From Phyllobacterium myrsinacearum (GTDB lineage Bacteria > Pseudomonadota > Alphaproteobacteria > Rhizobiales > Rhizobiaceae), in assembly GCF_014138285.1 (NCBI RefSeq), contig NZ_JACGXN010000002.1, forward strand, positions 310,001 through 374,000: 64,000 nucleotides of DNA. The letters are read 5' to 3'. A program made the translations under genes and the position numbers. How positions within the stretch are numbered: the stretch's first letter is position 1; every line of letters begins with the position of its first letter. The notes below the pieces were generated by a model. That model made no database searches. It had not been told where the DNA came from and saw nothing but the letters and a program-made list of their open reading frames with translations. This document shows, one piece after another, positions 712-34,521 of the stretch.

Positions 712-1159
712 TCTGCTCTCTCGCACTCCCAGGGCGTCGCAAAGAGCCGTCCGCACAGACCGGACGGCGGGGATGAAACCGCAGATTGAGACCGTTCAGA
801 TGAGAAAGTCCATTGGAATTCTTTCACAGGAAATTCCCGCGCTTAGAACCAGATAAACCGGCAGAAAGCGCCTTTCGGTGAATGAATTGGTGAAGAAAAA
901 TTGCCTAAAGCATTGATCTTTCATCAGCCGACTTGTTACACTATCCCCATGAACATTGTGATTTCCGCCTTCACAATTGATTTTCCCGCGTCGCTATATC
1001 GACAGGTGCTGTCGCGATATACCTCATTAATTCAGGGAAACCATTGCATTCTGATGCGATAAGGATGCCAAATGGCACGCAAGCGAACGACTGGGTAAGG
1101 CAGTACCAAGTTAAGATTCGTACCGGGTGAACTGTCAAAACGAGTGGGAGACAAAACCT
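712..1159. other. intergenic region upstream of proX
   Basis: 448 bp between two divergent genes. The only structure seen is the operator at 990-1020 and the Shine-Dalgarno GGGAG (1146-1150) that fixes the proX start. No RNA gene or repeat was recognised. Confidence 0.5.
990..1020 (+). promoter_or_regulatory. 21-bp-spaced GTCGC direct repeat (putative AraC-type operator), proX promoter
   Basis: Half-sites GTCGCTATAT (990-999) and GTCGCGATAT (1011-1020) match at 9 of 10 positions and start exactly 21 bp, about two helical turns, apart. They lie about 140 bp upstream of the proX ATG. The same GTCG(C/T) step of 21 bp recurs before four other operons of the betaine system. Binding by the GbdR-like regulator at 29686-30684 is inferred. 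Confidence 0.6.
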
Positions 1160-2161
1160 ATGAAGAAGCTGCTTGCTTCAACTTTACTGGCCGCAGGGTT
1201 TTTCGGCTTTGCCGGAGCCGCTTCGGCCGCAGAATGCGGTTCGGTTACCATTGCCAATATGAACTGGCCGTCAGCGGAAGCCCTGGCCAATCTGGACAAG
1301 CTGGTCCTGACGGAAGGCTATGGCTGTGATGCGGAACTGGTCGCTGGCGACACGGTGCCGACTTTCACATCGATGATCGAAAAGGGACAACCGGATATCG
1401 CACCCGAAGGCTGGCTCAATTCCGTTCGTGAGCCGCTTGAAAAGGCGGTCAAGGAAAACAAACTGGTTTACGCCGCACCCGCCATCACCGAAGGCGGTAC
1501 GGAGAGCTGGTGGATCCCCAAATATTTCGCTGACGCACATCCTGATATAAAGACGATTTCCGATGCCATGAAGCATCCGGAGCTTTTCCCTTCCCCCGAA
1601 GATCCGAAGAAGGGCGCTGTCTACAACTGCCCGTCAGGCTGGGCCTGCCAGATCACGACCACCAATTTCTACAAGGCCTATGAAGGCGACAAGCATGGCT
1701 TTACCCTTGTCGACACCGGCTCGGCTGCGGGTCTCGATGGCTCAATCGCCAAGGCTTACGAGCGTAAGGAACCCTGGCTCGGCTACTACTGGGGCCCGAC
1801 CGCGATCCTTGGGAAATACCCCATGGTCAAGCTCGACAACGGTGTACCGTTTGACGAGAAGGAATGGCAGCGTTGCACAACCATTGCCGATTGTCCGGAT
1901 CCAAAGCCGAATGGATGGGCGAAATCCGACATCTACACGATTGTCACAAAGAAATTCGCCGACAAGTCGGGGCCTGCATTCGATTATCTGAAGCAGCGTC
2001 AGCTTTCCACGGTCGAGTTCAACAAGCTCCTCGCATGGATGGTCGACAACCAGGCCACCGGCGAAGACGGTGCAAAATATTACCTGAAGAACAACGAAGC
2101 CACGTGGTCGAAGTGGGTTTCTCCGGAAGCCGCTGCCAAGATCAAGGCTGCAGTTCAATAA
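1160..2161 (+). CDS. glycine betaine/proline-betaine-type ABC transporter substrate-binding protein
   Basis: A 333-residue periplasmic binding protein of the OpuAC/ProX family. ATG 1160 is preferred over an upstream in-frame GTG (1127) because GGGAG lies 9 nt before it and a clean signal peptide follows, with cleavage near ASA-AEC (residues 21-26). Trp36, Trp85 and Trp117/Trp118, plus an LGYYWGP motif, could build the aromatic cage that binds trimethylammonium groups in this family. It is followed by a strong intercistronic hairpin, a permease and an ATPase, so it should feed quaternary amines to the demethylation genes downstream. Choline, glycine betaine, carnitine or proline betaine are all possible ligands. 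Confidence 0.93.
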   Translation: MKKLLASTLLAAGFFGFAGAASAAECGSVTIANMNWPSAEALANLDKLVLTEGYGCDAELVAGDTVPTFTSMIEKGQPDIAPEGWLNSVREPLEKAVKENKLVYAAPAITEGGTESWWIPKYFADAHPDIKTISDAMKHPELFPSPEDPKKGAVYNCPSGWACQITTTNFYKAYEGDKHGFTLVDTGSAAGLDGSIAKAYERKEPWLGYYWGPTAILGKYPMVKLDNGVPFDEKEWQRCTTIADCPDPKPNGWAKSDIYTIVTKKFADKSGPAFDYLKQRQLSTVEFNKLLAWMVDNQATGEDGAKYYLKNNEATWSKWVSPEAAAKIKAAVQ

Positions 2162-2167
2162 CAGACT

Positions 2168-2276: not shown

Positions 2277-3164
2277 ATGGATTGGTTCTACTCATTCCCG
2301 AAAATGAATGACGAGACACTCCGCAATCTGAAAAAAACCATGGATGAAGGCTTCAAGGCTTTCACCCGCAGCTACGGCGATGTGATCGAGTCGTTTTTCC
2401 AGCCGCTGCAATATTTCCTGATCCAGGCCGAGAAGTTCATGACTTCGACCCCATGGCCGATCATGGTTCTGCTGATCGCGGGCATTGCGTGGCTCGCCAG
2501 CCGCAACTGGAAGATCGTTGCCGGAACAGTCCTCACCCTTCTCCTGATCGGCTATTTCGATATGTGGAGCGACGCGATGAAGACCATCGCAATGATTTTC
2601 GTGGGAACAGTCGTGTCCGTCGTTGTCGGCATTCCTATCGGCATTGTCATGGCGCGTTCCGACGGCTTCCAGCGTATCGTCAATCCCATTCTTGACGTCA
2701 TGCAGACCATGCCAAGCTTCGTCTACCTCATCCCCGTTGTCATGCTTCTCGGCATCGGCAAGGTTCCCGGCCTCATCGCCGTGGTGATCTACGCCATCCC
2801 GCCGATGATCCGCCTGACCAATCTTGGCATCCGGCTCGTCGACAAGGATGTGCTTGAGGCCGCCGATGCCTTCGGCTCCTCCAGTTGGCAGCGGCTTAAG
2901 AACGTACAGATTCCCCTGGCCCTGCCCACCATCATGGCCGGTATCAACCAGACAATCATGATGGCGCTTGCCATGGTGGTCATTGCCTCGATGATCGGCG
3001 TACAGGGCCTCGGCCAGCCGGTTCTGCGCTCGGTCAACGGCCAGTTCTTCTCGCTCGGACTTTTCAACGGTCTTGCCATTGTCGGCATTGCCATCATTTT
3101 TGACCGCGTCAGCCAGGCCTATGGCATGCGCCTTCAAAAGCACCAGGAGGTGGTTCATGGCTGA
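2277..3164 (+). CDS. betaine/quaternary amine ABC transporter permease (ProW-like)
   Basis: A 295-residue inner-membrane permease. Its ATG is preceded by AAGGGG (2262-2267). After a hydrophilic N-terminal segment of about 60 residues come about six membrane segments with the BPD_transp_1 signature region (EAADAFGSSSWQRLKNVQIP). The layout matches the ProW/OpuAB family. It overlaps the ATPase gene by 8 bp, so it belongs to the proX-permease-ATPase operon. It should form the channel of the quaternary-amine importer. Confidence 0.93.
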   Translation: MDWFYSFPKMNDETLRNLKKTMDEGFKAFTRSYGDVIESFFQPLQYFLIQAEKFMTSTPWPIMVLLIAGIAWLASRNWKIVAGTVLTLLLIGYFDMWSDAMKTIAMIFVGTVVSVVVGIPIGIVMARSDGFQRIVNPILDVMQTMPSFVYLIPVVMLLGIGKVPGLIAVVIYAIPPMIRLTNLGIRLVDKDVLEAADAFGSSSWQRLKNVQIPLALPTIMAGINQTIMMALAMVVIASMIGVQGLGQPVLRSVNGQFFSLGLFNGLAIVGIAIIFDRVSQAYGMRLQKHQEVVHG

Positions 3165-4227
3165 TCGTTCCGTTCAGGGCGCCGGTATCCAGATCAAGAA
3201 TCTCTACAAGATCTTCGGCCACAAACCGGGAGCCTATGTCGATGCCGTCAAGAACGGCATGACCAAGACCGAGCTCAATGAAAAGCACAACCACGTGCTC
3301 GGCCTGCGCGATATCAATATCGATATGCCCGCCGGCTGCATTCAGGTGGTCATGGGTCTCTCGGGTTCAGGCAAGTCAACACTGATCCGCCACATCAACC
3401 GGCTCATCGATCCGACCGTCGGCGAAGTCATTGTCGACAAGGCCGACGTCTGCAAGATGAATCAGAACGATCTGCGCGAATTCCGCCGTCACAAGACCGC
3501 GATGGTTTTCCAGAAGTTCGCGCTGCTTCCGCATCGGACGGTTCTCGACAACACGGTCTATGGTCTGGAAATCCAGGGTCTTAGCCGGATAAAACAGGAA
3601 GAACAGGCGCGTCGCTGGATTGAACGGGTAGGACTGAAGGGCTTCGAGGACAATTATCCGAACCAGCTGTCAGGCGGCATGCAGCAGCGTGTCGGGCTTG
3701 CCCGCGCCCTGACCAATGACGCACCGATCCTGTTGATGGACGAGGCATTTTCGGCCCTTGATCCGCTGATCCGCATGGATATGCAGTCCGTGCTTCTGGA
3801 CCTGCAAAAGGAAATCAAGAAAACCGTCGTTTTCATCACCCACGATCTCGATGAAGCACTGCGGCTCGGCGACCGGATCGCCATCCTGCGCGATGGCGAG
3901 GTGGTCCAGCAGGGAACGGGTCAGGATATCGTGCTGAAACCGGCCGACGAGTATATTTCAAGCTTCGTCAAGGAAGTGAACCGCGGGCGGGTGATCATGG
4001 TCGATACCATCTCCACCAAGGGCGACGGTTCGGCCAATGCGGGCGGCGTGACGGTCAAGACCGGGACGATCCTCGAGGAAGCCGCCAAGACCATGACGGA
4101 TGCCAACCAGCAGCACGCAACAGTTGTGGACGACGCCGGCAAGCCGCTCGGGGTCATCACCATGAACAACCTGATTCAGGCGATGGTCACACCCATCAGC
4201 CATTTGACTCATCAGGCGGCGGAGTGA
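3157..4227 (+). CDS. glycine betaine-type ABC transporter ATP-binding protein (ProV/OpuAA-like)
   Basis: A 356-residue ATPase. The ATG at 3157 has AGGAGG (3145-3150) inside the permease gene, so a longer frame beginning at 3073 is rejected. Walker A GLSGSGKST is at 67-75, with the signature LSGGMQQR, Walker B LLMDEAFSALD and a switch His (FITHD). The N-terminal extension with HKPGAY and the C-terminal CBS-like region (ATVVDDAGKPLGVI) are typical of osmoprotectant ATPases, where the C-terminal part senses ionic strength. It is the last gene of the importer operon, followed by an inverted-repeat element. Confidence 0.94.
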   Translation: MADRSVQGAGIQIKNLYKIFGHKPGAYVDAVKNGMTKTELNEKHNHVLGLRDINIDMPAGCIQVVMGLSGSGKSTLIRHINRLIDPTVGEVIVDKADVCKMNQNDLREFRRHKTAMVFQKFALLPHRTVLDNTVYGLEIQGLSRIKQEEQARRWIERVGLKGFEDNYPNQLSGGMQQRVGLARALTNDAPILLMDEAFSALDPLIRMDMQSVLLDLQKEIKKTVVFITHDLDEALRLGDRIAILRDGEVVQQGTGQDIVLKPADEYISSFVKEVNRGRVIMVDTISTKGDGSANAGGVTVKTGTILEEAAKTMTDANQQHATVVDDAGKPLGVITMNNLIQAMVTPISHLTHQAAE

Positions 4228-4530: not shown

Positions 4531-4556
4531 GTCGCTTCCCTTGCGCTCGGCGTCGC
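4531..4556 (+). promoter_or_regulatory. 21-bp-spaced GTCGC direct repeat, mttB1 promoter
   Basis: GTCGC at 4531-4535 and again at 4552-4556, 21 bp apart, on the coding strand about 65-90 bp upstream of the mttB1 ATG (4623). The same arrangement occurs before proX, the corrinoid protein gene, the PF13769/metF operon and the second DMGDH-like gene. Inferred operator of the betaine regulon. Confidence 0.6.
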
Positions 4557-4622: not shown

Positions 4623-6203
4623 ATGAGTGAACCGGCAGCAGACATCGAAATCCCCGCAACGGCACGCGATCATGGCCGACGTGGCGGACGGTCCCGCCCC
4701 CGCAGCCTCGAAAGCGGCGCCTTCGACCAGCCACCTTTCCGTCAGCTGAAAATTCCGTTCGCGCCAACCAAGATCATTTCCGACGACGAACTGGAATCGA
4801 TCCACAATGCCTCGCTGCGGGTGCTGCAGGAGATCGGCGTCGACGTGCTGCATGACGGCGCGCGCGAGATCATGAAAACCGCCGGTGCCGACGTGCGCCC
4901 CGGCTCGCAGCGCGTGCATTTCGACAAGGACATGATCCTCGAATATGTCGGCTATGCGCCGTCGGAATTCACCCTGCATGCCCGCAACCCTGCCCATAAT
5001 GTGCGCTTCGGCGGCAACAATCTGATTTTCTCGCAGATGGGTTCCGCCCCCAACTGTTCCGATACGGACAATGGCCGACGTTCCGGCAATCAGGCGGATT
5101 TCCGCAACTTCGTCAAACTGGCGCAGATGCACAACATCATCAACACCACGGGCGGTTATCCCGTCGAGCCGATCGACATCCACCCCTCGGTACGCCACCT
5201 CGAATGCATCCGCGATCTTTCCATCCTGTCCGACAAGGCGTTCCACATCTATTCGCTCGGCAAGGAACGCAATCTGGATGGTATCGAGATCGCCCGTCTT
5301 GCCCGCGGCATCAGCCTGGAGCAGCTGCAGAACGAGGCCTCCTGCTACACCATCATCAACACCAATTCGCCGCTGAAGCTCGACGTTCCGATGATGGAAG
5401 GCATCATCCATATGTCGGGCAATGGCCAGATCGTCATTGTCACGCCGTTCACACTGGCTGGCGCCATGGCGCCGGTGACCATCGCCGGTGCGTTGGTGCA
5501 GCAGAACGCCGAAGCCCTTGCGGGCATCTCCTTCACGCAGATGGTCAAAAAAGGGGCGCCGGTCGGCTATGGCGGCTTTACCTCCAATGTCGACATGAAA
5601 TCCGGAGCGCCCGCTTTCGGCACGCCCGAATACATGAAGGCACAGATGGTCGGCGGCCAGCTTGCCCGCCGCTACAAGATTCCCTACCGCACCTCCAATG
5701 TCTGCGCCGCCAACACGGTCGATGCGCAGGCGGCCTATGAATCGGTCTTCTCGCTGTGGGGCGCCATTCAGGGCGGCGGCAATTTCATGCTGCATTCCGC
5801 CGGCTGGCTGGAAGGTGGCCTCTGCTGTTCCTATGAAAAGATGATCCTCGATTTCGACCTCCTGCAGATGGTGGCGGAATTCCTGACACCGCTCGACCTG
5901 TCGGAAGATGCGCTCGGCATCGAAGCCATGCGCGATGTCGGCCCCGGCGGTCATTTCTTCGGTACAGCCCATACCCAGTCGCGCTACAAGACGGCGTTCT
6001 ACGCCCCGATCATTTCCGACTGGCGCAACTATGAAACATGGCAGGAAGCAGGCTCGCCCACGGCCATCGAACGCGCCAACCGCGTCTGGAAAGAGCGGCT
6101 GGCCACCTATGAAAAGCCCGCCATCGATCCGGCGATCGAAGAAGAGATCAACGCCTTCGTTGCCCGGCGCAAGGCCGAGGGCGGCGCGCCGACGGATTTC
6201 TAA
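4623..6203 (+). CDS. MttB-family (COG5598) corrinoid-dependent quaternary amine methyltransferase, non-pyrrolysine (copy 1)
   Basis: 526 residues; GAAGGG (4609-4614) supports ATG 4623. The body matches the trimethylamine methyltransferase superfamily (IINTNSPLKLDVPMMEG, FTLAGAMAPVTIAGAL, HSAGWLEGGL). The frame has no internal amber codon, so unlike archaeal MttB it should not use pyrrolysine. Known non-Pyl members such as MtgB and MtpB transfer a methyl from glycine betaine or proline betaine to a Co(I)-corrinoid protein. The N-terminus carries an Arg-rich, probably disordered tail (R15, R19, R20, R23, R25, R27) outside the family fold. A DMGDH-like gene follows 64 bp later, suggesting the N-dimethyl product is handed to it. 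The exact substrate is unknown. Confidence 0.92.
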   Translation: MSEPAADIEIPATARDHGRRGGRSRPRSLESGAFDQPPFRQLKIPFAPTKIISDDELESIHNASLRVLQEIGVDVLHDGAREIMKTAGADVRPGSQRVHFDKDMILEYVGYAPSEFTLHARNPAHNVRFGGNNLIFSQMGSAPNCSDTDNGRRSGNQADFRNFVKLAQMHNIINTTGGYPVEPIDIHPSVRHLECIRDLSILSDKAFHIYSLGKERNLDGIEIARLARGISLEQLQNEASCYTIINTNSPLKLDVPMMEGIIHMSGNGQIVIVTPFTLAGAMAPVTIAGALVQQNAEALAGISFTQMVKKGAPVGYGGFTSNVDMKSGAPAFGTPEYMKAQMVGGQLARRYKIPYRTSNVCAANTVDAQAAYESVFSLWGAIQGGGNFMLHSAGWLEGGLCCSYEKMILDFDLLQMVAEFLTPLDLSEDALGIEAMRDVGPGGHFFGTAHTQSRYKTAFYAPIISDWRNYETWQEAGSPTAIERANRVWKERLATYEKPAIDPAIEEEINAFVARRKAEGGAPTDF

Positions 6204-6267: not shown

Positions 6268-8844
6268 ATGAAATCGCACGTTAAAGCAGTTGTCATTGGC
6301 GGCGGCGTAGTCGGATGTTCGGTCCTTTACCATCTCGCCCGCGCCGGCTGGACCGATGTCCTGCTGATCGAACGCTCGGAGCTGACTTCAGGGTCTTCCT
6401 GGCATGCGGCTGGCGGTTTTCATACGCTGAACGGCGATCCCAATGTCGCCAAGCTGCAGGCCTATACGGTCAGTCTCTACAAGGAAATCGAGGAACTCTC
6501 CGGCCAGTCCTGCGGCCTGCACCTGACCGGCGGCGTGATGATGGCCGACAGCCCGGAGCGCATGGACTTCCTGCGCCTTGCCCATGCGCGCGGCCGCTAT
6601 CTCGGCATGGATACCGAGCTAATCACCCCTTCCGAAGCCAAGGCCATGTTCCCGCTGATGGACGAAACCAATTTCGTCGGCGCCATGTGGGACCCGGTCG
6701 AAGGTCACCTCGATCCATCCGGCACCACCCATGCCTATGCCAAGGCCGCCCGCAAGCTGGGTGCTGAAATCTCCCTGCGCAACCGCGTCGTCGAACTCAC
6801 GCAGGAGGTCGACGGAACGTGGAATGTCGTCACCGAACAGGGAACCGTCAAGGCCGAGCACGTGGTCAATTGCGGTGGCCTGTGGGCGCGTGAAGTCGGT
6901 CGCATGGTCGGCCTCGAACTGCCGGTTCTGGCCATGGAGCACATGTATCTCCTCACCGAGGATGTGCCAGAGGTCATGGAATTCAACAAGTCGACCGGAC
7001 GCGAGCTGATCGGCGTCATGGATTTCAAGGGCGAGATCTACACGCGACAGGAGCGCAACGGCATCCTGCTCGGCACCTACGAAAAGGCGGCAAAGCCATG
7101 GTCGCCGGTCAATACGCCATGGGATTTCGGCCATGAACTGCTGGCCCCGGATATTGACCGTATCGCCCCTTCCCTCGAAGTCGGCTTCAAACATTTTCCC
7201 GGCATCGAGAAAGCCGGTATCAAGCAGATCATCAACGGCCCCTTCACCTTTGCGCCGGATGGCAATCCGCTGGTTGGCCCCGTCCCGGGCCTGACCAATT
7301 ACTGGACCGCCTGCGCCGTCATGGCCGGGTTCAGCCAGGGCGGCGGCGTCGGCCTCGCGCTTTCCAACTGGATGGTGCACGGCGAGCCCGGCTTTGACGT
7401 CTGGGGCATGGATGTCGCACGTTTCGGCGAATGGGCAACCCTGCGCTACACCAATGCCAAGGTGCGCGAAAACTATTCGCGCCGTTTCTCCATCCGGTTC
7501 CCCAACGAGGAACTGCCTGCCGCACGGCCGCAGCAGACAACACCGCTCTACGACACGATGCTGCGCCAGAACGCCGTCATGGGCGATTCCTGGGGTCTTG
7601 AAACCCCGCTCTGGTTCGCACCCAAGGGTACCGAGGCCAAAGATATCGTTTCCTATCACCGCTCCAACGATTTCGAGCATATCGGCAACGAAGTCCGCGC
7701 CACGCGTGAGCGGGTCGGCGTTACCGAAATCGCCAACTTCGCCAAATATGAAGTCACCGGCAGCGGAGCAGAAGCATTCCTGTCTCACCTGATGACCAAC
7801 ACGATGCCGAAAACCGGCCGGCTTGTCCTCACCCCCATGCTGAACGAAACCGGCAAGCTGATCGGCGATTTCACCATCGCCAAGGCGGCTGAAGAGCGGT
7901 TCCTCATCTGGGGCTCGTCCGCGGCCCAGCGCTATCACATGCGCTGGTTCCAGCAGCACCAGCCCAAGGATGGGTCGGTGCATATTCATCGTTTCGACCA
8001 GACGCTCGTCGGCCTGTCCATCGCCGGTCCGAAATCGCGCGATCTTCTGGCCAAGCTGGTGGACGAGGACGTGTCGAACGCCGCTTTCCGGTTCATGGAT
8101 TTCCGCGAAATGGCCGTCGGCGGTGCCCCCTGCAAGGTCAACCGCATTTCCTATACGGGCGATCTCGGCTACGAAATCTGGATGGAACCCGCCTATCAGC
8201 GGCTGGTCTATGCCGCCATCAAGGACGCGGGCGAGGAATTCGGCATTGTCGATTTCGGCATGCGCGCGCTGCTCTCCATGCGGCTTGAAAAGAATTTCCC
8301 GACATGGTTCCGCGAACTGCGTCCGATCTACGGCGTTTACGAAGGCTCTATGGATCGTTTCATCAAGCTTGGCAAAAATGATTTCATCGGCCGCGAGGCG
8401 GCAGCGCAGGAAAAGGCCGAGTTTGATGCCGGCACCAGCAAGAAGCTGCGGCGGGTCTCGCTGATCATCGACGTGCCTGATGGCGACGGCGCTGCCGATG
8501 TCATGGGTGATGAGCCGATCTGGGCCAAGGTCAGCAAGGACTATGGCGTGGTGGAAGCCGGACACGGCATCGGCGCGCCGCGCTTCAACGATGCGGGCGC
8601 GGTCGTTTCCTTCGAGGGCGACAAGGGTGCCGTGCAGGGTGAATGGCGTGTCGTCGGCTGGGTCACGTCAGGCGGCTACGCCCATTATGTCGGCCATTCC
8701 ATGGCGCAGGGCTATGTGCCTGCGGAACTCGCGGAAAATGAGAACGCCGGCCTGTTCGAAGTCGAAATTCTCGGTCTTCGCCGCACCGCCCGCATCAACA
8801 TCGAGCCGCCATTTGATCCATCCGGCTCCAAAATGCGCGGGTGA
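6268..8844 (+). CDS. FAD-dependent dimethylglycine/sarcosine dehydrogenase-like oxidoreductase (copy 1)
   Basis: 858 residues with an AAGAGG ribosome site. Order: a Rossmann FAD (DAO) domain with VIGGGVVG near residue 9; SGSSWHAAG with His46, the position that carries covalent FAD in DMGDH; an FAO_M linker; and C-terminal GcvT and GcvT_C aminomethyltransferase domains (about 430-858) that bind tetrahydrofolate. Family members oxidise N-methyl groups and trap formaldehyde as 5,10-methylene-THF. It lies 64 bp downstream of mttB1, probably on the same transcript, so it likely acts on that enzyme's product. An 838-residue paralog lies at 31886-34402. Confidence 0.92.
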   Translation: MKSHVKAVVIGGGVVGCSVLYHLARAGWTDVLLIERSELTSGSSWHAAGGFHTLNGDPNVAKLQAYTVSLYKEIEELSGQSCGLHLTGGVMMADSPERMDFLRLAHARGRYLGMDTELITPSEAKAMFPLMDETNFVGAMWDPVEGHLDPSGTTHAYAKAARKLGAEISLRNRVVELTQEVDGTWNVVTEQGTVKAEHVVNCGGLWAREVGRMVGLELPVLAMEHMYLLTEDVPEVMEFNKSTGRELIGVMDFKGEIYTRQERNGILLGTYEKAAKPWSPVNTPWDFGHELLAPDIDRIAPSLEVGFKHFPGIEKAGIKQIINGPFTFAPDGNPLVGPVPGLTNYWTACAVMAGFSQGGGVGLALSNWMVHGEPGFDVWGMDVARFGEWATLRYTNAKVRENYSRRFSIRFPNEELPAARPQQTTPLYDTMLRQNAVMGDSWGLETPLWFAPKGTEAKDIVSYHRSNDFEHIGNEVRATRERVGVTEIANFAKYEVTGSGAEAFLSHLMTNTMPKTGRLVLTPMLNETGKLIGDFTIAKAAEERFLIWGSSAAQRYHMRWFQQHQPKDGSVHIHRFDQTLVGLSIAGPKSRDLLAKLVDEDVSNAAFRFMDFREMAVGGAPCKVNRISYTGDLGYEIWMEPAYQRLVYAAIKDAGEEFGIVDFGMRALLSMRLEKNFPTWFRELRPIYGVYEGSMDRFIKLGKNDFIGREAAAQEKAEFDAGTSKKLRRVSLIIDVPDGDGAADVMGDEPIWAKVSKDYGVVEAGHGIGAPRFNDAGAVVSFEGDKGAVQGEWRVVGWVTSGGYAHYVGHSMAQGYVPAELAENENAGLFEVEILGLRRTARINIEPPFDPSGSKMRG

Positions 8845-16701: not shown

Positions 16702-18288
16702 TCAGGTGAATGCGTCGGGCATCGACGCTTTTTTCTTCGCAATGAATTCCTTGAGGGATTCGTCGATGGCCGGGTCGAGATAGGGTGCCTCATAGGTTTC
16801 GAGCCATCGGCGTGCCAGATCGTTGCCGCGTTGATCGGCGCGTTTCTCGCCTTCGGCCAGCCATTGCTCGTAGGAATTGTTATCGGCAATGTTCGAGCGG
16901 TAGAACGCCGTCTGGAAGTTCGCCTGCGTGTGATCGCAGCCGAGATAGTGACTGCCCGGACCCACCTGCCGGATCGCATCCATCGCCTGGCCGTTCTCGG
17001 AAAGATCAATGCCCTCGGCGAATTTTTGCGCCATGCCGAGCTGGTCGATGTCCATCATGAACTTCTCATAGGAAGACACGAGACCGCCTTCGAGCCAGCC
17101 GGCCGAATGTAGCACGAAATTCGTGCCCGCGAGAAGCGTCGAGTTCAGCGTATTGGCGCTTTCATAGGCCGCCTGCGCATCGGAAACCTTCGAGGCACAG
17201 AGCGAACCACCGGTACGGAACGGCAGTCCGAGCCGCCGTGCCAGCTGTGCCGCGCCATAGGAAACAAGCGACGGCTCCGGCGTGCCGAATGTCGGTGCCC
17301 CCGACTGCATTGAAATCGATGAGGCAAAGGTGCCGAAAATGACCGGGGCGCCGGGACGGATCAGCTGGGTGAAGGACGCGCCTGCCAGCACTTCCGCCAG
17401 AACCTGCGTCAACGTACCGGCCACCGTCACCGGGCTCATCGCTCCGGCGAGAATGAACGGCGTGACGATGCAGGCCTGATTGTTGCGGGCATAGACCTTC
17501 AGCGCGCCAACCATCGTCTCGTCAAAGACCATGGGGGAATTGGCGTTGATCAGGCTGGTCAGGACCGTGTTCTGGTCGAGATAATCCTCGCCGAACACCA
17601 GCTTGCACATGGCAATCGTGTCTTCTGCCCGTTCCGGCGCCGTGACCGAGCCCATGAATGGCTTGTCGGAATATTTGATGTGGGCGTAGACCATATCGAG
17701 ATGGCGTTTGTTGACGGGCACGTCAACCGGTTCGCACACGGTTCCGCCGGAATGGTGGATCGACGGCGCCATGTAGGAGAGCTTCACGAAATTATTGAAG
17801 TCTTCAATCGTTGCATAACGGCGATTGCCTTCGAGATCGCGCACGAAGGGCGGACCGTAAACCGGCGCGAACACCGTGGCCTTGCCGCCGATCTGTACAG
17901 ACCGTTCAGGGTTGCGTGCATACTGCGTATAAACCGAAGGAGCCGTTTTCAGAAGCGACCGGGGAAGACCCTTGGGGAAATGCACCCGCTCGCCTTTAAC
18001 GTCGGCTCCGGCTTCACGCCAGAGCTGCAGGGCCTCCGCATCGTCGCGGAACTCGATGCCGATCTCTTCAAGCACCGTATCCGCATTGGCTTCGATCAGC
18101 GCCAGCCCTTCTTCATCCAGCACCTCATATTCGCGAATCTTGCGCGTGATAAAGGTAAGCGACTTGCCCGGGCCGCCGCCGGAACGGGCTGCTCGGCGGG
18201 CAGCTGCGCCTGCACCGGCACCACGTCCGCGGCGTCCGCCGCTTTCTGCCGTGTCCGCAGGTGCATCGACTGGCGTTTCCTGATTCAT
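16702..18288 (-). CDS. MttB-family corrinoid-dependent quaternary amine methyltransferase, non-pyrrolysine (copy 2)
   Basis: 528 residues. ATG 18288 is chosen because GGGAGAG lies just upstream, while alternative starts to 18348 lack a site. It carries the same superfamily hallmarks as copy 1 (INANSPMVFDETMVGAL, FILAGAMSPVTVAG, HSAGWLEGGL) but is clearly divergent, so probably a different substrate. No internal amber codon. The N-terminus is an Arg/Gly/Ala-rich low-complexity tail (R19, R20, R22, R31, R32, R35) before the fold starts near SLTFITRKI. It is divergent from the corrinoid protein gene, its likely partner, and followed by the QueG-like ferredoxin gene. Confidence 0.92.
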   Translation of the reverse strand: MNQETPVDAPADTAESGGRRGRGAGAGAAARRAARSGGGPGKSLTFITRKIREYEVLDEEGLALIEANADTVLEEIGIEFRDDAEALQLWREAGADVKGERVHFPKGLPRSLLKTAPSVYTQYARNPERSVQIGGKATVFAPVYGPPFVRDLEGNRRYATIEDFNNFVKLSYMAPSIHHSGGTVCEPVDVPVNKRHLDMVYAHIKYSDKPFMGSVTAPERAEDTIAMCKLVFGEDYLDQNTVLTSLINANSPMVFDETMVGALKVYARNNQACIVTPFILAGAMSPVTVAGTLTQVLAEVLAGASFTQLIRPGAPVIFGTFASSISMQSGAPTFGTPEPSLVSYGAAQLARRLGLPFRTGGSLCASKVSDAQAAYESANTLNSTLLAGTNFVLHSAGWLEGGLVSSYEKFMMDIDQLGMAQKFAEGIDLSENGQAMDAIRQVGPGSHYLGCDHTQANFQTAFYRSNIADNNSYEQWLAEGEKRADQRGNDLARRWLETYEAPYLDPAIDESLKEFIAKKKASMPDAFT

Positions 18289-18419
18289 TTTCTCTCTCCC
18301 GGCGCTTGATGCGCGGATTGGTTCTTCGGTCATGACCTCAACAGTCAAATCCTACCCGCGACACATATCGGGGCGTTTCCGTGTGCGTCAAACAATGGCG
18401 CATGGAAGACAACCAGACA

Positions 18420-18445
18420 GTCGTTTTCGTCTTTTACGAGGTCGC
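18420..18445 (+). promoter_or_regulatory. 21-bp-spaced GTCG(T/C) direct repeat between mttB2 and the corrinoid protein gene
   Basis: GTCGTTTTCG starts at 18420 and GTCGCATTTA at 18441, 21 bp apart, on the strand of the corrinoid protein gene and about 95-120 bp before its ATG. The second half-site is nearly identical to GTCGCATTTG at 21818. A separate pair in mttB2 orientation was not found, so the site may serve both divergent genes. Confidence 0.6.
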
Positions 18446-18541
18446 ATTTAAGCAATGCGTTTTCAGCAACTTGCCCGATATGTTAAGGGAATGCCAGTAC
18501 CGATACAAAGCTGTGCATAACGCTTGAGAGGAAGAACACCC

Positions 18542-19240
18542 ATGGCCGACGATGAAATCATTCTTTCGGAGCTTTCGGACGACGAACTCGTCGAACAAAT
18601 GCATGACGATCTGTATGACGGATTGAAGGAAGAGATCGAGGAAGGTACCAATATTCTTCTGGAGCGCGGCTGGGTCCCTTACCGGGTTCTGACCGAAGCG
18701 CTGGTCGAAGGCATGCGTATCGTAGGCGAGGATTTCCGCGACGGCATCCTTTTCGTGCCGGAAGTTCTGCTTTCAGCCAATGCCATGAAGGCAGGCATGT
18801 TCATCCTGCGCCCTCTCCTTGCAGCAACTGGCGCACCGAAACAGGGCAAGCTGGTTATCGGAACCGTCAAAGGCGACATTCACGATATCGGCAAGAATCT
18901 CGTCGGCATGATGATGGAAGGCGCTGGCTTCGACGTCATCGATCTCGGCATCAACAATCCGGTCGAAAACTATCTGGCCGCCATTGAAGAACACAAGCCT
19001 GACATTCTCGGCATGTCCGCCCTGCTTACAACGACGATGCCCTATATGAAGGTCGTTATCGACACGATGAAGGAAAAGGGCATTCGCGACGATTACGTCG
19101 TGCTCGTTGGCGGTGCTCCCCTAAACGAAGAGTTCGGCAAAGCCGTGGGCGCGGATGCCTATTGCCGCGATGCGGCCGTCGCGGTTGAAACCGCCAAGGA
19201 CTATATGAAGCGCAAGCACAACCAGTTGGCCGGTGCCTGA
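18542..19240 (+). CDS. cobalamin-binding corrinoid carrier protein (MttC/MtgC-like)
   Basis: 232 residues; AGAGGAAG precedes ATG 18542. It has an N-terminal methionine-synthase-type helical cap (about 20-100) and a B12-binding Rossmann domain with G111-D-I-H-D-I-G117, in which His114 is the lower axial cobalt ligand, followed by MSALLTTTM and VGGAPLN. It should shuttle the methyl group between MttB-type donors and the MtgA-like acceptor. The first 35 residues are strikingly acidic (15 Asp/Glu against one Lys), which may pair with the Arg-rich tails of its partner enzymes. Divergent from mttB2 and followed by a strong terminator. Confidence 0.95.
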   Translation: MADDEIILSELSDDELVEQMHDDLYDGLKEEIEEGTNILLERGWVPYRVLTEALVEGMRIVGEDFRDGILFVPEVLLSANAMKAGMFILRPLLAATGAPKQGKLVIGTVKGDIHDIGKNLVGMMMEGAGFDVIDLGINNPVENYLAAIEEHKPDILGMSALLTTTMPYMKVVIDTMKEKGIRDDYVVLVGGAPLNEEFGKAVGADAYCRDAAVAVETAKDYMKRKHNQLAGA

Positions 19241-21817: not shown

Positions 21818-21843
21818 GTCGCATTTGAGTGCACGCACGTCGT
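21818..21843 (+). promoter_or_regulatory. 21-bp-spaced GTCG(C/T) direct repeat, PF13769/metF/mtgA operon promoter
   Basis: GTCGCATTTG starts at 21818 and GTCGTGAGAT at 21839; they are preceded by identical CAC, so CACGTCG repeats exactly at 21 bp. The pair lies 60-85 bp upstream of ATG 21905. Extra single GTCGY sites occur at 21794 and 21882. Confidence 0.6.
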
Positions 21844-21904: not shown

Positions 21905-22207
21905 ATGGCCGATCTTATTGTCGTTTATTGGCGGGACATTCCTGCACAGGTGACCGTCAAAAAAGGACGTCAAGCCGCAAAGCGCGAACTTCCTCTTCGA
22001 TTTACTGAAGCCATCGACATGTGTGCGATGCGTATAGGTGCCCGGGATTCGGACGCCTATCTGGCAGAATGGCGCCGGGGAACTCCGGTGCCAGTGAGTG
22101 ATGATCTGGACGCAGAGGCTGATGCAGCCCTCGCCCGTATTGACAGTGAATATCACCGGGAGCGGCTTGTAGCGCTCGTAAAGGCAGGCGGACATGACAA
22201 TTCATGA
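21905..22207 (+). CDS. PF13769-type small protein (annotated virulence factor family), accessory to the methyl-transfer operon
   Basis: 100 residues with a strong GGAGG (21891-21895). The sequence (MADLIVVYWRDIPAQV, RFTEAIDMCAMRIGARDSDAYLAEWRR) matches the small family named virulence factor (PF13769), whose function is unknown. It is the first gene of an operon: the metF-like gene starts inside its 3' end (14-bp overlap) and the mtgA-like gene follows. This position argues for a role in C1/corrinoid chemistry rather than virulence, for example as a subunit or chaperone of the MetF-like protein. That is inference. Confidence 0.85.
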   Translation: MADLIVVYWRDIPAQVTVKKGRQAAKRELPLRFTEAIDMCAMRIGARDSDAYLAEWRRGTPVPVSDDLDAEADAALARIDSEYHRERLVALVKAGGHDNS

Positions 22208-23090
22208 ATTGAAAGCAAAGCCCATGACAAAGATCGCAGCATCCATCGAAGTGGCGGCACGCCAGGCGATTGATTCACAGGACCTGCCGGGTCTGTTCCC
22301 CGAGGGAACCCGCGTCTATATCACAGATATGGGCACCGATGGCGTCGACACGCTGACAGCTGCGGCCAAGCGCATCCATGATCTCGGCTACAAGCCCGTC
22401 CCGCACATTGCATCGCGCCGCCTTGGAACACGGGCCGCTCTGGAAACCCGCATTCGCCGTGCCGCTGAAGAAGCTGGCGTGACCGATGTTCTGGTCATCG
22501 GCGGCGGCCTCGAACGGCAGGCTGGCGACTTCTCCTCCACCATGGAAGTGCTGGAAACCGGCTTTTTCGACAAATACGGCATCACAGAAATGGGCGTCGC
22601 GGGCCATCCCGAAGGCAGCCCGGAATTTTCCGAGGCGGTTGCCCTTGAAGCACTGCGCCTGAAGAAGAATTTCGGTGAGCGCACCGGCGCCCGTCTGCGC
22701 GTGGTTACCCAGTTCGGCTTTGATGCCGACCGTTTCATCCGCTACTCGGAATCGCTGCGCGAACATGGCGTTGATCTGCCCGTGCATCTCGGCGTTGCCG
22801 GTCCGGCCAAGATCACCACGCTGATCAAATATGCTGCCATGTGCGGCGTCGGCAACTCGATCAGCTTCCTGAAGAAGAATGCCCTGTCGCTGACAGCACT
22901 CGCCACGAGCCATTCGCCGGAAGGCGTTGTTGGCCCGATCGAGCAGCATGTCATCAACAATCCGGCTTCTGCCATCAAGCAGATCCACATTTTCCCGTTC
23001 GGCGGCCTGAAGAAGTCGTCCGAATGGCTGGTTGATCGCGGCTCCTGGAGTGTTGCATCGGCCCAATACGCATCCGCAGCAGCGAATTAA
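22194..23090 (+). CDS. methylenetetrahydrofolate reductase-like protein (short MetF, no N-terminal regulatory domain)
   Basis: 298 residues from ATG 22194, which overlaps the PF13769 gene by 14 bp; ATG 22224 is an alternative. The TIM-barrel pattern matches the MTHFR superfamily: RVYITDMGTDGVDT, PVPHIASRRLG, VLVIGGG, EMGVAGHPEGSPEF, RVVTQFGFDADRF and PVHLGVAGPAKI. In the demethylation pathway it would run in the oxidative direction, converting the 5-methyl-THF made by the MtgA-like enzyme to 5,10-methylene-THF. It carries no Arg-rich tail, consistent with it not contacting the corrinoid protein. The electron acceptor is unknown. Confidence 0.88.
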   Translation: MTIHELKAKPMTKIAASIEVAARQAIDSQDLPGLFPEGTRVYITDMGTDGVDTLTAAAKRIHDLGYKPVPHIASRRLGTRAALETRIRRAAEEAGVTDVLVIGGGLERQAGDFSSTMEVLETGFFDKYGITEMGVAGHPEGSPEFSEAVALEALRLKKNFGERTGARLRVVTQFGFDADRFIRYSESLREHGVDLPVHLGVAGPAKITTLIKYAAMCGVGNSISFLKKNALSLTALATSHSPEGVVGPIEQHVINNPASAIKQIHIFPFGGLKKSSEWLVDRGSWSVASAQYASAAAN

Positions 23091-23101
23091 GGATTTCCTG
23101 A

Positions 23102-24064
23102 ATGACCCGCACGATCGTTGCCTCGGCGACCAGAGAAATCATCATCGGATTTGATCAGCCATTCTGCGTGATCGGCGAACGGATCAATCCGACAGGCCGC
23201 AAGAAACTTGCGGCCGAGATGGCTGCCGGCATTTTTGATACGGTGATCAAGGATGCGCTGGAACAGGTTGCCGCTGGTGCAACCATGCTCGACGTCAATG
23301 CGGGTGTCACCTCCGTCGACCCGAATGCGACGGAGCCCGGTCTGCTCGTCAAGACACTGGAAATCGTGCAGAATCTCGTCGACATTCCCCTGTCCATCGA
23401 CAGTTCGGTCACTGCTGCCATCGAAGCTGCGCTGAAGGTCGCCAAGGGCCGTCCACTGGTCAATTCCGTGACCGGTGAAGAGGAAAAGCTTGAGGCCATC
23501 CTGCCGTTGATCAAGAAGTACAATGTCCCCGTCGTCGCCATCTCGAACGACGAAACCGGTATTTCCATGGACCCGGATGTGCGCTTTGCCGTTGCCAAGA
23601 AGATCGTGCAGCGCGCCGCCGATTTCGGCATTCCAGCCCATGACATCGTCGTCGATCCGCTGGTCATGCCCATTGGAGCCCTTGGCGATGCGGGCCGTCA
23701 GGTTTTTGCACTTCTGCGCCGTCTGCGCGAAGAACTGAAGGTCAACACCACCTGCGGTCTCTCCAATATCTCCTTCGGCCTGCCTCATCGTCACGGCATC
23801 AATGCCGGGTTCATTCCCATGGTGATCGGCGCCGGCATGACATCGGCAATCATGAATCCCTGCCGTCCGCAGGAAATGGAAGCGGTTCACGCCGCCAACG
23901 TTCTCAACGGCACCGACCCCAACTGCACCTATTGGATCAAGAAGTATCGTGACCATCAGCCGGCCGCTGCCGGGGCAGCACCTGCTGTTTCAGTACCGGC
24001 CGATGCCAATGGCGGCGGACGCCGGCGCGGTGGCCGTGAAGCGCGGCGCGGCGCGACGGGTTGA
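23102..24064 (+). CDS. pterin-binding methyltransferase, methylcorrinoid:tetrahydrofolate (MtgA/MtvA-like)
   Basis: 320 residues starting 11 bp after metF. The DHPS-like pterin-binding barrel has GERINPTG (25-32), LDVNAG, LSIDSS, VNSVTGEEEKL, AISNDETG and GLSNISFGLP, as in the methyl-THF domains of MetH, AcsE and MtgA. The expected reaction transfers the methyl from methyl-Co(III)-corrinoid to tetrahydrofolate. An Ala/Pro linker (about 287-302) leads to a C-terminal Gly/Arg tail (304-320, with RRRGGREARR) absent from the core family. Similar tails occur on MttB1, MttB2, RACE and the homocysteine methyltransferase. Followed by an inverted-repeat element and the RACE gene. Confidence 0.92.
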   Translation: MTRTIVASATREIIIGFDQPFCVIGERINPTGRKKLAAEMAAGIFDTVIKDALEQVAAGATMLDVNAGVTSVDPNATEPGLLVKTLEIVQNLVDIPLSIDSSVTAAIEAALKVAKGRPLVNSVTGEEEKLEAILPLIKKYNVPVVAISNDETGISMDPDVRFAVAKKIVQRAADFGIPAHDIVVDPLVMPIGALGDAGRQVFALLRRLREELKVNTTCGLSNISFGLPHRHGINAGFIPMVIGAGMTSAIMNPCRPQEMEAVHAANVLNGTDPNCTYWIKKYRDHQPAAAGAAPAVSVPADANGGGRRRGGREARRGATG

Positions 24065-29685: not shown

Positions 29686-30684
29686 ATGAACCAGACGGGC
29701 CTCAATAAGCGGTCTTTTGTTTTTTTCCTCGTGCCGAACTTTTCGATGATCGCTTTTGCGACGGCCATCGAACCGCTCCGCATTGCCAATCGCATGCTCG
29801 GATATGAGGCCTATCGCTGGCGCCTTGCTTCCGTGGACGGTAAGCCCGTCACTGCCTCCAATGGCGTTGAATGCGCTGCCAACTCCTCGCTTGAAGACGA
29901 GCGCCGTTTCCTGACCGGCGAAGACCGCCCCTCGATGGTGTTTGTCTGCTCCGGCGTGCATGTCGAAAAATTCCAGAACAAATCCGTCTATGCCTGGCTG
30001 CGTGAAGAGTTCAACCGCGGCGTGGCCGTTGGCGGTCTTTGCACGGGCGCGCATATTCTGGCGGCCGCCGGGCTGCTTTCGGGCAAGCGCTGCGCGATCC
30101 ATTGGGAAAACCTGCCCGGGTTTGCCGAATCATTCCCCAAAGCCGATGTCTATGCCGACCTCTTCGAAGTGGATGGCAATATCTACACCTGCGCCGGCGG
30201 TACTGCCGCGCTTGATATGATGCTGAAGCTGATCGGCGACGATTTCGGCGACAACATCGTCAATCGCGTCTGCGAACAGGCGCTGACAGATCGTGTCCGC
30301 AGCCCGCATGACCGCCAGCGCCTGCCGTTGCGCGCGCGCCTCGGCGTGCAGAATTCCAAGGTCCTTACCATCATCGAGTTGATGGAGGCCCGGCTTTCCG
30401 AACCGCTGTCGCTGATCGAGATCGCCGATCATGTCGGCCTGTCGCGCCGCCAGATCGAGCGCCTGTTCCGGCAGGAAATGGGCCGGTCCCCGGCACGGTA
30501 CTATCTGGAGATCAGGCTCGACCGAGCCCGCCACCTGCTGATCCAGTCATCCATGCCCATCGTTGAAGTCGCCGTTGCCTGTGGTTTCGTCTCGGCATCG
30601 CATTTCTCCAAATGCTACCGCGAGCTGTATGGCCGTTCGCCGCAGCAGGAACGGGCCGACCGCAAGCAGCTGATGGCGGCTTAG
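29686..30684 (+). CDS. GlxA-family AraC-type regulator, GbdR-like
   Basis: 332 residues. An N-terminal DJ-1/PfpI-like domain (about 10-185; FFLVPNFSMIAFATAIEPLRIAN, GGLCTGAHILAAAGLL) is followed by a C-terminal AraC DNA-binding domain (about 225-325) with two HTH motifs (SLIEIADHVGLSRRQIERLFRQ and VAVACGFVSASHFSKCY). This architecture is that of GbdR, the activator of glycine betaine and dimethylglycine catabolism in Pseudomonas. It is the most likely reader of the 21-bp-spaced GTCG(C/T) repeats found before five operons in this window, since AraC proteins bind such two-turn direct repeats. No such repeat was seen in front of its own gene. Confidence 0.9.
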   Translation: MNQTGLNKRSFVFFLVPNFSMIAFATAIEPLRIANRMLGYEAYRWRLASVDGKPVTASNGVECAANSSLEDERRFLTGEDRPSMVFVCSGVHVEKFQNKSVYAWLREEFNRGVAVGGLCTGAHILAAAGLLSGKRCAIHWENLPGFAESFPKADVYADLFEVDGNIYTCAGGTAALDMMLKLIGDDFGDNIVNRVCEQALTDRVRSPHDRQRLPLRARLGVQNSKVLTIIELMEARLSEPLSLIEIADHVGLSRRQIERLFRQEMGRSPARYYLEIRLDRARHLLIQSSMPIVEVAVACGFVSASHFSKCYRELYGRSPQQERADRKQLMAA

Positions 30685-30890: not shown

Positions 30891-30907
30891 CACAATGCAC
30901 ATGCAGC

Positions 30908-31885: not shown

Positions 31886-34402
31886 TTAGGCTCTGAGGCG
31901 CTCGTTCTCGGTATCGAACGGAGTTTCGGGGATAACCGTCGCCTTGTGCGTCTTGCCGAGGATCTTGATCTCCAGCTGTGTGCCCAGTGCCGAGTAATCA
32001 GGCTTGACCATGGCAAGAGCCAGGCTCTTGCCCAGACGCCAGCCATAACCGCCATGGGTCGCACGGCCGATAAGCTGGCCATTGGCATAGATCGGCTCGC
32101 TGCCCCGCGCATCCACATCGGACACACCGGGCACATGCACCTCAAGCGTCACAAAGTTCCACTTCAGGCCATCCTCGCGAGCCTTCACAACCGCATCGCG
32201 GCCGATGAAATCCCCCTTGTTGGGATGGACGAAACGATCGAGACCGCTTTCGAAGGCATTATATTCGATCGACAGTTCGCGCGGGATCAGGCGATAGGAC
32301 TTTTCGACCGCCATTGCCGTCATCGCGCGGATACCGAACGGCTTGATGCCGAATTCCGCACCGGCTTCGAGCAGCAGATCATAGATGCTGTTCTGCTGTT
32401 CGATCGGATGATGCAGTTCCCAGCCGAGTTCGCCGACAAAGTTGACGCGCAGGGCATGAGCCGTTGCCGTACCAACGCTGATTTCCTTGCCTGACAGCCA
32501 GGGGAACGCTTCATTGGAGAGGTCGGCACGGGTGATCTTCTGCAGAACCTCACGACTCTTGGGGCCTGCAAGCACCAGAACGCCATACATCTGCGTGATC
32601 GGGCGAAGCGTCACCGAACCATCGGCTGGCAGCAGCTTGACGAGATAATCATGATCATGGTTCTCGTAGGCACCGGCGGAAACCAGATAGAACTTGCCGG
32701 GAGCCCATTCGTAGACCGTGAACTCGGAGCGCACGCCGCCCTGCTTGGTCAGGAGGTGGCAAAGCGCAATACGGCCCTGCTTCTTGGGGATGCGGTTTGC
32801 CAGAATGGAATCGAGCCATTCGCGCGCACCGGGGCCCGCCACTTCAATCTTGGCAAAGGCTGACATATCGAGAAGGCCGACATTGCTGGTGACGTTCTTG
32901 ATCTCGTTGCCGACATGCTCGAAATAGTTCGAACGATGGAAGGACCAGATCTCCTTCACCTTGCCATCCGCATCCGGCTTCGGATGATTGTGGTTCATCA
33001 GCACATCCGGCTTGTCCAGCTTGGCGACGTCGAGGCCATAATCCTGCGGCGCAAACCAGTTGGCGCGTTCCCAGCCATAGACGGTGCCGAACACGGCGCC
33101 GAGTGCCTTCTGGCGATCATAGGACGGTGAACGCTTGAGCGGACGGGCAGCACCGCGCTCTTCATCGGGATAGTGCACCGAGAACACCTCGGCATAGGCT
33201 TCCTCGTTCTTTTCCTTCAGGTAGCCTTCAGTCGCATAGGGGCCGAAGCGGCGCGGATCGACGCCCATCATGTCGATGGAGGGCTCGCCTTCGACGATCC
33301 ATTCGGCCAGCTGCCAGCCGGCACCACCCGCGGCGGTGACGCCGAAGGAATGGCCTTCGTTGAGCCAGAAATTCTTCAGGCGCGGCGCAGGTCCGATGAT
33401 GGGCGAACCATCCGGCGTATAGGCGATGGCGCCGTTGTAGACCTTCTTGATACCGACTTCACCGAAGGCCGGAACGCGGGCAATGGCTGTCTCGATATAG
33501 GGTTCGAGGCGATCAAGATCTTCCTGGAACAGCTCGTATTCGCTGGCATCGGAAGGGCCGTCGACATAGCAGACAGGCGCGCCCTTTTCATATGGCCCGA
33601 GCAGCAGACCGCCGTTTTCCTCGCGCATGTACCAGGACGAATCGCTTTCACGCAGTACGCCCATCTCAGGCAGGCCCTTGGCCTTGCGCTCGACGATGGC
33701 GGGATGCGGCTCGGTGACGATATACTGGTGTTCAACCGGAATGACAGGCACGTCGAGGCCGACCATCTTGCCGGTCTTGCGGGCAAAATTGCCGGTTGCC
33801 GAAACAACGTGTTCAGCGGTGATGTCGCCCTTGTCAGTTTTGACAAGCCATTCGCCTGAGGGCAGCTGCTCGATGCCGAGAACCGTCGTGTAGCGATAGA
33901 TGGTTGCACCGCGATCACGCGCGCCCTTGGCGAGGGCCTGCGTCAGATCGGCTGGCTGGATGTAGCCGTCTTCCGGATGCTGGATAGCACCGAGAATGCC
34001 GTCCATTTCCGCCAGCGGCCAGATTTCCTTGACCTGTTCGGGCGTCAGCAGCTTGACCGGCACGCCGATCGTCTCGGCAACACCGGCATAGTACATGTAT
34101 TCGTCCCAGCGATCCTTGGTACGGGCGAGACGGATATTGCTGCAATTGGTGAAGCCGACATTCATGCCGGTCTCTTCCTGCAGCTCCTGATAGAATTTTA
34201 CCGAGTATTTGTGAATCTGGCCAACGGAATAGCTCATGTTGAACAGCGGCAACAGCCCAGCCGCGTGCCATGTCGAACCTGAGGTGAGTTCCTTGCGCTC
34301 GATCAGTACGACATCGCTCCAGCCTTTCTTGGCCAGATGATAGAGTGTCGAGACACCCACCACACCACCGCCGATAACAACTACACGCGCTTGGGTCTTC
34401 AT
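31886..34402 (-). CDS. FAD-dependent dimethylglycine/sarcosine dehydrogenase-like oxidoreductase (copy 2)
   Basis: 838 residues; ATG 34402 lies 9 nt after GAGGA, so the TTG at 34411 is rejected. Same layout as copy 1: Rossmann motif VIGGGVVG, SGSTWHAAGL with His46 for covalent FAD, an FAO_M linker, and GcvT plus GcvT_C folate-binding domains (about 430-838). It probably oxidises dimethylglycine or a related N-methyl amino acid to formaldehyde captured as methylene-THF. The promoter carries the 21-bp GTCGC repeat (34496-34521), placing it in the same regulon as mttB1 and the importer. The two paralogs may split dimethylglycine and other N-methyl substrates. Confidence 0.92.
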   Translation of the reverse strand: MKTQARVVVIGGGVVGVSTLYHLAKKGWSDVVLIERKELTSGSTWHAAGLLPLFNMSYSVGQIHKYSVKFYQELQEETGMNVGFTNCSNIRLARTKDRWDEYMYYAGVAETIGVPVKLLTPEQVKEIWPLAEMDGILGAIQHPEDGYIQPADLTQALAKGARDRGATIYRYTTVLGIEQLPSGEWLVKTDKGDITAEHVVSATGNFARKTGKMVGLDVPVIPVEHQYIVTEPHPAIVERKAKGLPEMGVLRESDSSWYMREENGGLLLGPYEKGAPVCYVDGPSDASEYELFQEDLDRLEPYIETAIARVPAFGEVGIKKVYNGAIAYTPDGSPIIGPAPRLKNFWLNEGHSFGVTAAGGAGWQLAEWIVEGEPSIDMMGVDPRRFGPYATEGYLKEKNEEAYAEVFSVHYPDEERGAARPLKRSPSYDRQKALGAVFGTVYGWERANWFAPQDYGLDVAKLDKPDVLMNHNHPKPDADGKVKEIWSFHRSNYFEHVGNEIKNVTSNVGLLDMSAFAKIEVAGPGAREWLDSILANRIPKKQGRIALCHLLTKQGGVRSEFTVYEWAPGKFYLVSAGAYENHDHDYLVKLLPADGSVTLRPITQMYGVLVLAGPKSREVLQKITRADLSNEAFPWLSGKEISVGTATAHALRVNFVGELGWELHHPIEQQNSIYDLLLEAGAEFGIKPFGIRAMTAMAVEKSYRLIPRELSIEYNAFESGLDRFVHPNKGDFIGRDAVVKAREDGLKWNFVTLEVHVPGVSDVDARGSEPIYANGQLIGRATHGGYGWRLGKSLALAMVKPDYSALGTQLEIKILGKTHKATVIPETPFDTENERLRA

Positions 34403-34495
34403 TTCATTCAATCCTCTGATATCAATCGGTGGTCAGGCGGCACGCGCCATTTTCTGCACTATGCCGTTCGTACTGTCCATTGCTAAGGCCTGTTT

Positions 34496-34521
34496 GCGAC
34501 ATGGCCAAAACACGCCGCGAC
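34496..34521 (-). promoter_or_regulatory. 21-bp-spaced GTCGC direct repeat, second DMGDH-like gene promoter
   Basis: On the minus (coding) strand GTCGCGGCGT starts at 34521 and GTCGCAAACA at 34500, 21 bp apart, about 95-120 bp upstream of ATG 34402. Same spacing and orientation as the four other operators in the window. Confidence 0.6.

Follow-up and report, generated by a model that had tools for sequence, protein, structure and literature searches.

The Pseudomonas regulators CdhR, GbdR, SouR and ArgR possess a DJ-1-like sensor, and in P. aeruginosa gbcAB belongs to the GbdR regulon. Cobalamin riboswitches are known ahead of metE and of class I ribonucleotide reductase genes, which encode B12-independent isoenzymes, and B12 silences metE beside metH via the leader RNA. 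The operators of the four Pseudomonas regulators are described as direct repeats, GGTCGC or TGTCGC, that recur after a 21-bp step; the promoters that carry them belong to quaternary-amine or amino-acid genes (PMC5806209, PMC10963909). The CdhR site, GGTCGC-N15-GGTCGC, is called very similar to the sites of GbdR, SouR and ArgR, and at caiX-cdhR of P. aeruginosa the like sites of CdhR and GbdR overlap (PMC5806209). The ARG box, TGTCGCN6GNAA, occurs in tandem with 5 bp between the copies, which amounts to a 21-bp step, and its spacing is variable in P. alloputida (PMC10963909). The betaine-catabolism set that P. aeruginosa places under GbdR includes the transporter gene cbcX (PMC5806209, PMC3170909). 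For Ruegeria pomeroyi, B12-dependent demethylation with MtgC has been reported (MtgBCD) and contrasted with the GbcAB route; the main text of that paper, in the form accessible, has no mention of AraC, GbdR or a promoter, and the word riboswitch occurs only in a reference title, on the glycine riboswitch (PMC12478193). TmaR, an AraC regulator of methylamine genes, was considered as a further lead and dropped, since the accessible text contains neither 'binding site' nor 'motif' (PMC13390433).

The window analysed here is a stretch of 64,000 nucleotides from Phyllobacterium myrsinacearum (contig NZ_JACGXN010000002.1, positions 310,001 to 374,000). An earlier note on this DNA had described five GTCGY-N16-GTCGY pairs that point toward genes, and all five were found (Table 1); it had missed that the site type is already known from Pseudomonas. 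As in the Pseudomonas operators, the half-sites are direct repeats with a 21-bp step in front of genes of this class. Unlike those operators, they are found ahead of B12-dependent methyltransferase genes, the half-site is GTCGY, and a 22-bp step is also used. The set resembles the P. aeruginosa GbdR regulon in combining betaine catabolism with a transporter, but it also has MttB, MtgC and MtgA genes, and its gbcA is separated from the operator by a cobalamin riboswitch. In B12-dependent demethylation with MtgC the locus corresponds to R. pomeroyi. We consider it quite probable that the repeats function as operators for an activator of the GATase1 type, likely GbdR-like, that drives both demethylation routes, and that B12 silences the oxygenase route.

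Table 1. Predicted operators and associated genes in the window, and the riboswitch of the unlinked gbcA-like gene.
Feature	Position	Strand	Remarks
GTCGC-N16-GTCGC operator (predicted)	990..1015	+	precedes proX-like gene (betaine-type ABC transporter)
proX-like substrate-binding protein (OpuAC)	1127..2161	+	likely start 1160
proW-like permease and proV-like ATPase genes	2277..4227	+	
GTCGC-N16-GTCGC operator (predicted)	4531..4556	+	precedes mttB1 (MttB family) and DMGDH1
mttB1, MttB-family methyltransferase	4623..6203	+	
DMGDH1-like FAD/GCV_T protein	6268..8844	+	
mttB2, MttB-family methyltransferase	16702..18348	-	divergent from mtgC; lacks a same-strand pair
GTCGT-N16-GTCGC operator (predicted)	18420..18445	+	between divergent mttB2 and mtgC, facing mtgC
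mtgC-like B12-binding corrinoid protein	18524..19240	+	215.8 bits (NCBIfam cut-off 370)
GTCGC-N16-GTCGT operator (predicted)	21818..21843	+	precedes PF13769-metF-mtgA
PF13769 small protein, metF-like and mtgA-like genes	21905..24064	+	
GbdR-like regulator	29686..30684	+	DJ-1/PfpI domain and AraC-type HTH; proposed activator
second DMGDH-like gene (DMGDH2)	31886..34411	-	
GTCGC-N16-GTCGC operator (predicted)	34496..34521	-	precedes DMGDH2
sixth exact match	63780..63805	-	coding; inside solute-binding-protein gene
cobalamin riboswitch RF00174	C12:3530-3729 (L315:3530-3729)	-	between operator and gbcA-like gene

The locus also encodes a corrinoid reactivator, and the gap of 64 bp suggests that DMGDH1 probably belongs to the mttB1 operon. 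Among the best 80 of 591 loci, the top named matches to the mtgC-like protein come from Phyllobacterium, and named loci from genera such as Phyllobacterium, Mesorhizobium, Rhizobium and Hoeflea in this set point to the Rhizobiaceae as the family. Divergent from DMGDH2 there is an open frame of 574 amino acids (34647-36371, plus strand), which scores well for codon usage and matches no Pfam family.

The five pairs have the arrangement of GATase1-AraC operators, with GTCGC-like half-sites in direct orientation and a 21-bp step between the two. Their number had been proposed to be unlikely by chance, and this is borne out by comparison both with shuffled DNA and with the genome's own rate. Dinucleotide-preserving shuffles of the window gave an expectation of 1.03 pairs (sd 0.96, largest 4), and none of 100 shuffles reached six. 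At the rate found outside the window, six or more matches would occur in it with a probability of about 2.5e-4, a post hoc value because the window was chosen for the motif. The sixth match in the window was set aside as a chance occurrence, being inside a coding region. Upstream of 27 genes hand-picked in the left 38 kb of the window, the step of 21 was found five times and every other step below 60 at most once. The distance from the first half-site to the start codon is 170 bp for proX (137 bp to an earlier GTG), 92 bp for mttB1 and 87 bp for PF13769; depending on the choice of start it is 104 or 122 bp for mtgC and 110 or 119 bp for DMGDH2. The tail of the ARG box, N6-G-N-AA, follows the second half-site at mtgC (GTCGC-N6-G-N-AA) and PF13769 (GTCGT-N6-G-N-AA); the second half-sites of proX, mttB1 and DMGDH2 do not fit it.

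A genome-wide scan for the exact motif had been suggested as a check on position. The genome of 5.97 Mb contains 84 matches, about 0.9 per 64 kb. The window sites are among the 18 that lie mostly outside genes, but the other 66 are in genes called by a home-made codon-usage script, which misses small genes such as PF13769, and six of these 66 sit 86-230 bp ahead of a called same-strand start. Position alone therefore cannot single out the five window sites, whereas conservation does. Besides the five, the mostly non-coding group comprises one site before psd, one before a gbcA-like gene and 11 others for which the same home-made caller gave no same-strand start within 579 bp. The psd site (C1:215397-215422, minus strand; L232:2498-2523), an exact 21-bp pair 185 bp ahead of the phosphatidylserine decarboxylase gene, may be a chance match.

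Comparison with relatives, the second check that had been suggested, gave strong support for mtgC, PF13769 and gbcA, moderate support for DMGDH2 and mttB1, and weak support for proX. Gene starts in relatives were extrapolated from tblastn. For mtgC the best 80 of 591 confirmed loci (named contigs) were used, and with the window itself excluded a pair at 21 or 22 bp was present in 75 of 80 regions. Among these same best 80 loci, PF13769 could be placed with sufficient upstream DNA in 70, and every one of the 70 regions had such a pair, again not counting the window. Of the regions ahead of gbcA 102 out of 119 contained one and 17 did not. The remaining genes were searched for in 61 family genomes, including that of P. 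myrsinacearum, and each gave 29 loci outside its own genome. Identity limits reduced these to 20 for DMGDH2 (70%), 19 for mttB1 (65%) and 24 for proX (55%), while all 29 gbdR-like loci passed a limit of 70%. Pairs at 21 or 22 bp were found for DMGDH2 in 11 of 20 orthologue regions, for mttB1 in 7 of 19, for proX in 4 of 24 homologues and for the gbdR-like gene in 5 of 29 relatives, the own genome being excluded each time. At the same loci, six genes that are not targets (mttB2, DUF1638, mtgA, RACo, BHMT and LysR) had no pair at 21 bp in 362 regions and two at 22 bp. L152, an mttB1 locus scored among those without a pair, is partially matched and has a pair across its extrapolated start. A same-strand pair for mttB2 was likewise considered and rejected; it occurs in none of 75 relatives and is absent from the window.

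The relatives also modify the view of the spacing. All five window pairs are exactly 21 bp apart, as had been stated, but a strict 21-bp rule does not hold, as 22 bp is common elsewhere and the mtgC and PF13769 promoters of one and the same locus differ in 13 of 67 cases. The steps for mtgC and PF13769 were 21/21 in 38 loci, 22/22 in 16, 21/22 in nine and 22/21 in four. Since both spacings can occur within one locus, it is more likely that the regulator accepts either of them than that the regulator itself has changed. Other common steps are 35 and 56 ahead of mtgC (21 of 80 each, among the best 80 of 591 loci), which are due to a third element, and 54 ahead of mttB2 (28 of 75), where 57 and 30 are found as well. 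The third element in mtgC regions of Mesorhizobium loci (e.g. L035, L043) is palindrome-like, GTCGCAAAATCGAC, and is positioned 35 bp upstream of the first half-site.

To define the promoter geometry, 174 dereplicated promoters of seven genes were aligned on the second half-site. The pooled alignment contains a -10-like signal, [TC][AT][AT]NNT, at offsets 36-41, with informative positions at 34-41, and the base before the GTCGY half-site is loosely conserved. The signal is uneven: a stricter -10 pattern reaches at least 25% at offset 36-37 in four of the seven groups (PF13769, DMGDH2, mttB1 and proX), and the mtgC, gbcA and gbdR groups remain below 25%. A -35 consensus was not found in the 174 aligned promoters. 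The end of the second half-site would fall at the -35 position, as expected for an activator that replaces a poor -35 box.

The most likely candidate for this activator is the GbdR-like protein of the window. Against the NCBIfam GbdR model NF052371, its best name, it scores 365 bits, below the equivalog cut-off of 480, and it is called GbdR-like for that reason. The stretches SRRQ-ERLF and CGFVS--HFSKCYRE, which we take to be the recognition helices, are common to the window protein and all eight compared proteins that score above the GbdR cut-off; these reference proteins are from genomes of the same phylum, probably Pseudomonas judging by the name of the model. In the nearest paralogue, C1:786096, both motifs differ, the second most strongly. 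Of the 61 family genomes, the own genome among them, 51 encode an orthologue with 70% identity or more. Such an orthologue is present in all 43 MttB-positive genomes versus 8 of the 18 MttB-negative ones, and in all 48 genomes that have either pathway versus 3 of 13 that have neither, some of the negatives being small genomes. These counts (43/0/8/10 and 48/0/3/10) are hand tallies, and the Fisher tests on them ignore phylogeny. The regulator gene is close to DMGDH2 in the window and in several relatives. Within 300 bp upstream of the gbdR-like gene of the window there is no pair, even with up to two mismatches allowed, and autoregulation in this genome was discarded for lack of an upstream pair, yet 5 of 29 relatives have one; in L226 the gbdR-like gene is preceded by three consecutive GTCGY half-sites at 21-bp steps. 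The proposal of an AraC-type, GbdR-like regulator has thus gained weight from the likeness of the operator to the sites of CdhR, GbdR, SouR and ArgR, from the shared motifs, from the pairs before gbdR-like genes in relatives, and from the co-occurrence of the regulator with the pathway.

The regulon likely extends beyond the set described in the earlier note, to gbcAB with a B12 riboswitch. This unlinked sixth target is on C12, where an exact pair is present 383 bp ahead of a gbcA-like gene, across a riboswitch leader. The encoded Rieske oxygenase scores 523.7 bits with NCBIfam NF058607, which is its best family by far, and because this is below the cut-off of 670 it is named GbcA-like. An adjoining GbcB-like reductase scores 281.7 bits, its gene being incomplete in the stretch analysed. 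The RF00174 match in the leader is full length with 103.9 bits, well above the Rfam gathering threshold of 31.5. A gbcA orthologue occurs in 120 of 297 family genomes and is preceded by an exact 21-bp pair in 72 of the 120. The distance from pair to gene is 351-439 bp with a riboswitch and 88-322 bp without, so that the riboswitch reads as an insert between promoter and gbcA. Folding of the gbcA leader gave no expression platform beyond shuffles (z -0.25). As with metE and ribonucleotide reductase, of two isofunctional partners it is the B12-independent one whose leader contains RF00174; unlike in the metE and nrdA cases, the partners here are two pathways of betaine demethylation, and an operator of a substrate-responsive type is present in the promoter as well. 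Seven other cobalamin riboswitches of this genome precede metE-like, nrdA-like, TonB-receptor, cobU/cobW, cbtAB, nitroreductase and DUF1636/ABC genes, and the first two of these encode B12-independent isoenzymes. The one before the cobU- and cobW-like genes (C2:305112-305345, minus strand) is about 4.7 kb left of the window. In the open-licence literature we found no earlier report of a gbcA cobalamin riboswitch or of its link to a betaine regulon, which may be in print elsewhere.

The presence of the riboswitch follows that of mtgC. Of 119 genomes scanned (G608, L446, was left out), a riboswitch precedes gbcA in 81 of 83 that have mtgC versus 4 of 36 that lack it (Fisher p 3e-22, not corrected for phylogeny). 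The six exceptions belong to two genera. Four genomes of g299 (L383, L389, L390 and L391) are mtgC-free and have weak riboswitch matches of 56-61 bits before gbcA, as if the switches were decaying; the remaining riboswitches score 84-119 bits, save one at 68.8. Two genomes of g307 (L418 and L420) have mtgC and gbcA, with neither riboswitch nor pair before gbcA. The genera g48 and g312 are each split, and the riboswitch follows mtgC in both. In a tree of 43 gbcA proteins, built from loci with the full gene and without the six exceptions, riboswitch and mtgC agree in every row. Six changes are needed on this tree, five of which are forced by well-supported branches, and five of five independent pairs point in the same direction (p 0.0625, the lowest value possible).

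Three other explanations should be considered. The repeats could be chance matches in GC-rich DNA, given that the motif is short and most of its matches in the genome are in called genes. The shuffles, the step spectra, the lack of 21-bp pairs ahead of non-target genes and the conservation across many genera all argue against this, and we regard it as very improbable. The operators could also be real while their main binder is a different GATase1-AraC paralogue, for example C1:786096. The own genome has nine more proteins that match the GbdR model over nearly its full length, so another paralogue could bind, and the likeness and overlap of CdhR and GbdR sites at caiX-cdhR of P. aeruginosa (PMC5806209) would fit such a situation. 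However, the window protein has both recognition-helix motifs from which the nearest paralogue departs, it is conserved in the family, including every genome with MttB, and its gene is near DMGDH2 and in some relatives preceded by a pair. A different main binder seems unlikely, and the GbdR-like protein is preferred.

The association of riboswitch and mtgC could reflect shared ancestry instead of a functional choice between pathways. Genomes of the same genus are not independent and the Fisher value takes no account of this; the tree test is limited to five pairs, and its 43 rows contain none of the six exceptions. On the other hand, both traits change jointly at least five times on the gbcA tree, the splits in g48 and g312 follow mtgC, and the four riboswitches without mtgC have the low scores of apparently decaying elements. 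Shared ancestry as the whole explanation is rather improbable, and a functional link between the riboswitch and the B12-dependent route is the preferred reading.

A mechanism that accounts for these observations can be outlined. The repeats would serve as operators of a GATase1-type activator with a DJ-1/PfpI sensor and an AraC HTH, most likely the GbdR-like protein encoded at 29686-30684. Together with a betaine-pathway ligand, the activator would occupy both half-sites, which are spaced by 21 or 22 bp, and the downstream half-site would adjoin the -35 position. This would activate betaine uptake, B12-dependent demethylation by MttB, MtgC and MtgA, and dimethylglycine breakdown. The same operator would drive the unlinked gbcAB-like genes of the B12-independent oxygenase route. 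The position of the cobalamin riboswitch between operator and gbcA suggests that when B12 is present the oxygenase would be shut off and betaine left to the B12-dependent route; under B12 shortage the oxygenase would take over. Binding by the GbdR-like protein, the ligand, the activation and the repression by B12 are proposed here on the basis of sequence.

For the Rhizobiaceae it appears fairly probable that two isofunctional betaine demethylation pathways are placed under one GbdR-like operator, with the riboswitch on the oxygenase branch making the choice. With B12, methyl groups would pass via MttB and MtgC to folate, without B12 GbcAB would act with oxygen, and the riboswitch would be kept or lost together with the B12-dependent route. 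The cell thus probably picks its betaine pathway by vitamin supply. Industrial B12 fermentation with Pseudomonas denitrificans and Sinorhizobium meliloti makes use of betaine (PMC8123684), so a link between B12 supply and the route of betaine is of practical interest. What began as a repeat spotted by eye becomes a regulon that can be tested across a large group of bacteria from soil and plants. If the proposal is true, betaine demethylation would be a further process for which a B12 riboswitch governs the use of the B12-independent isoenzyme.
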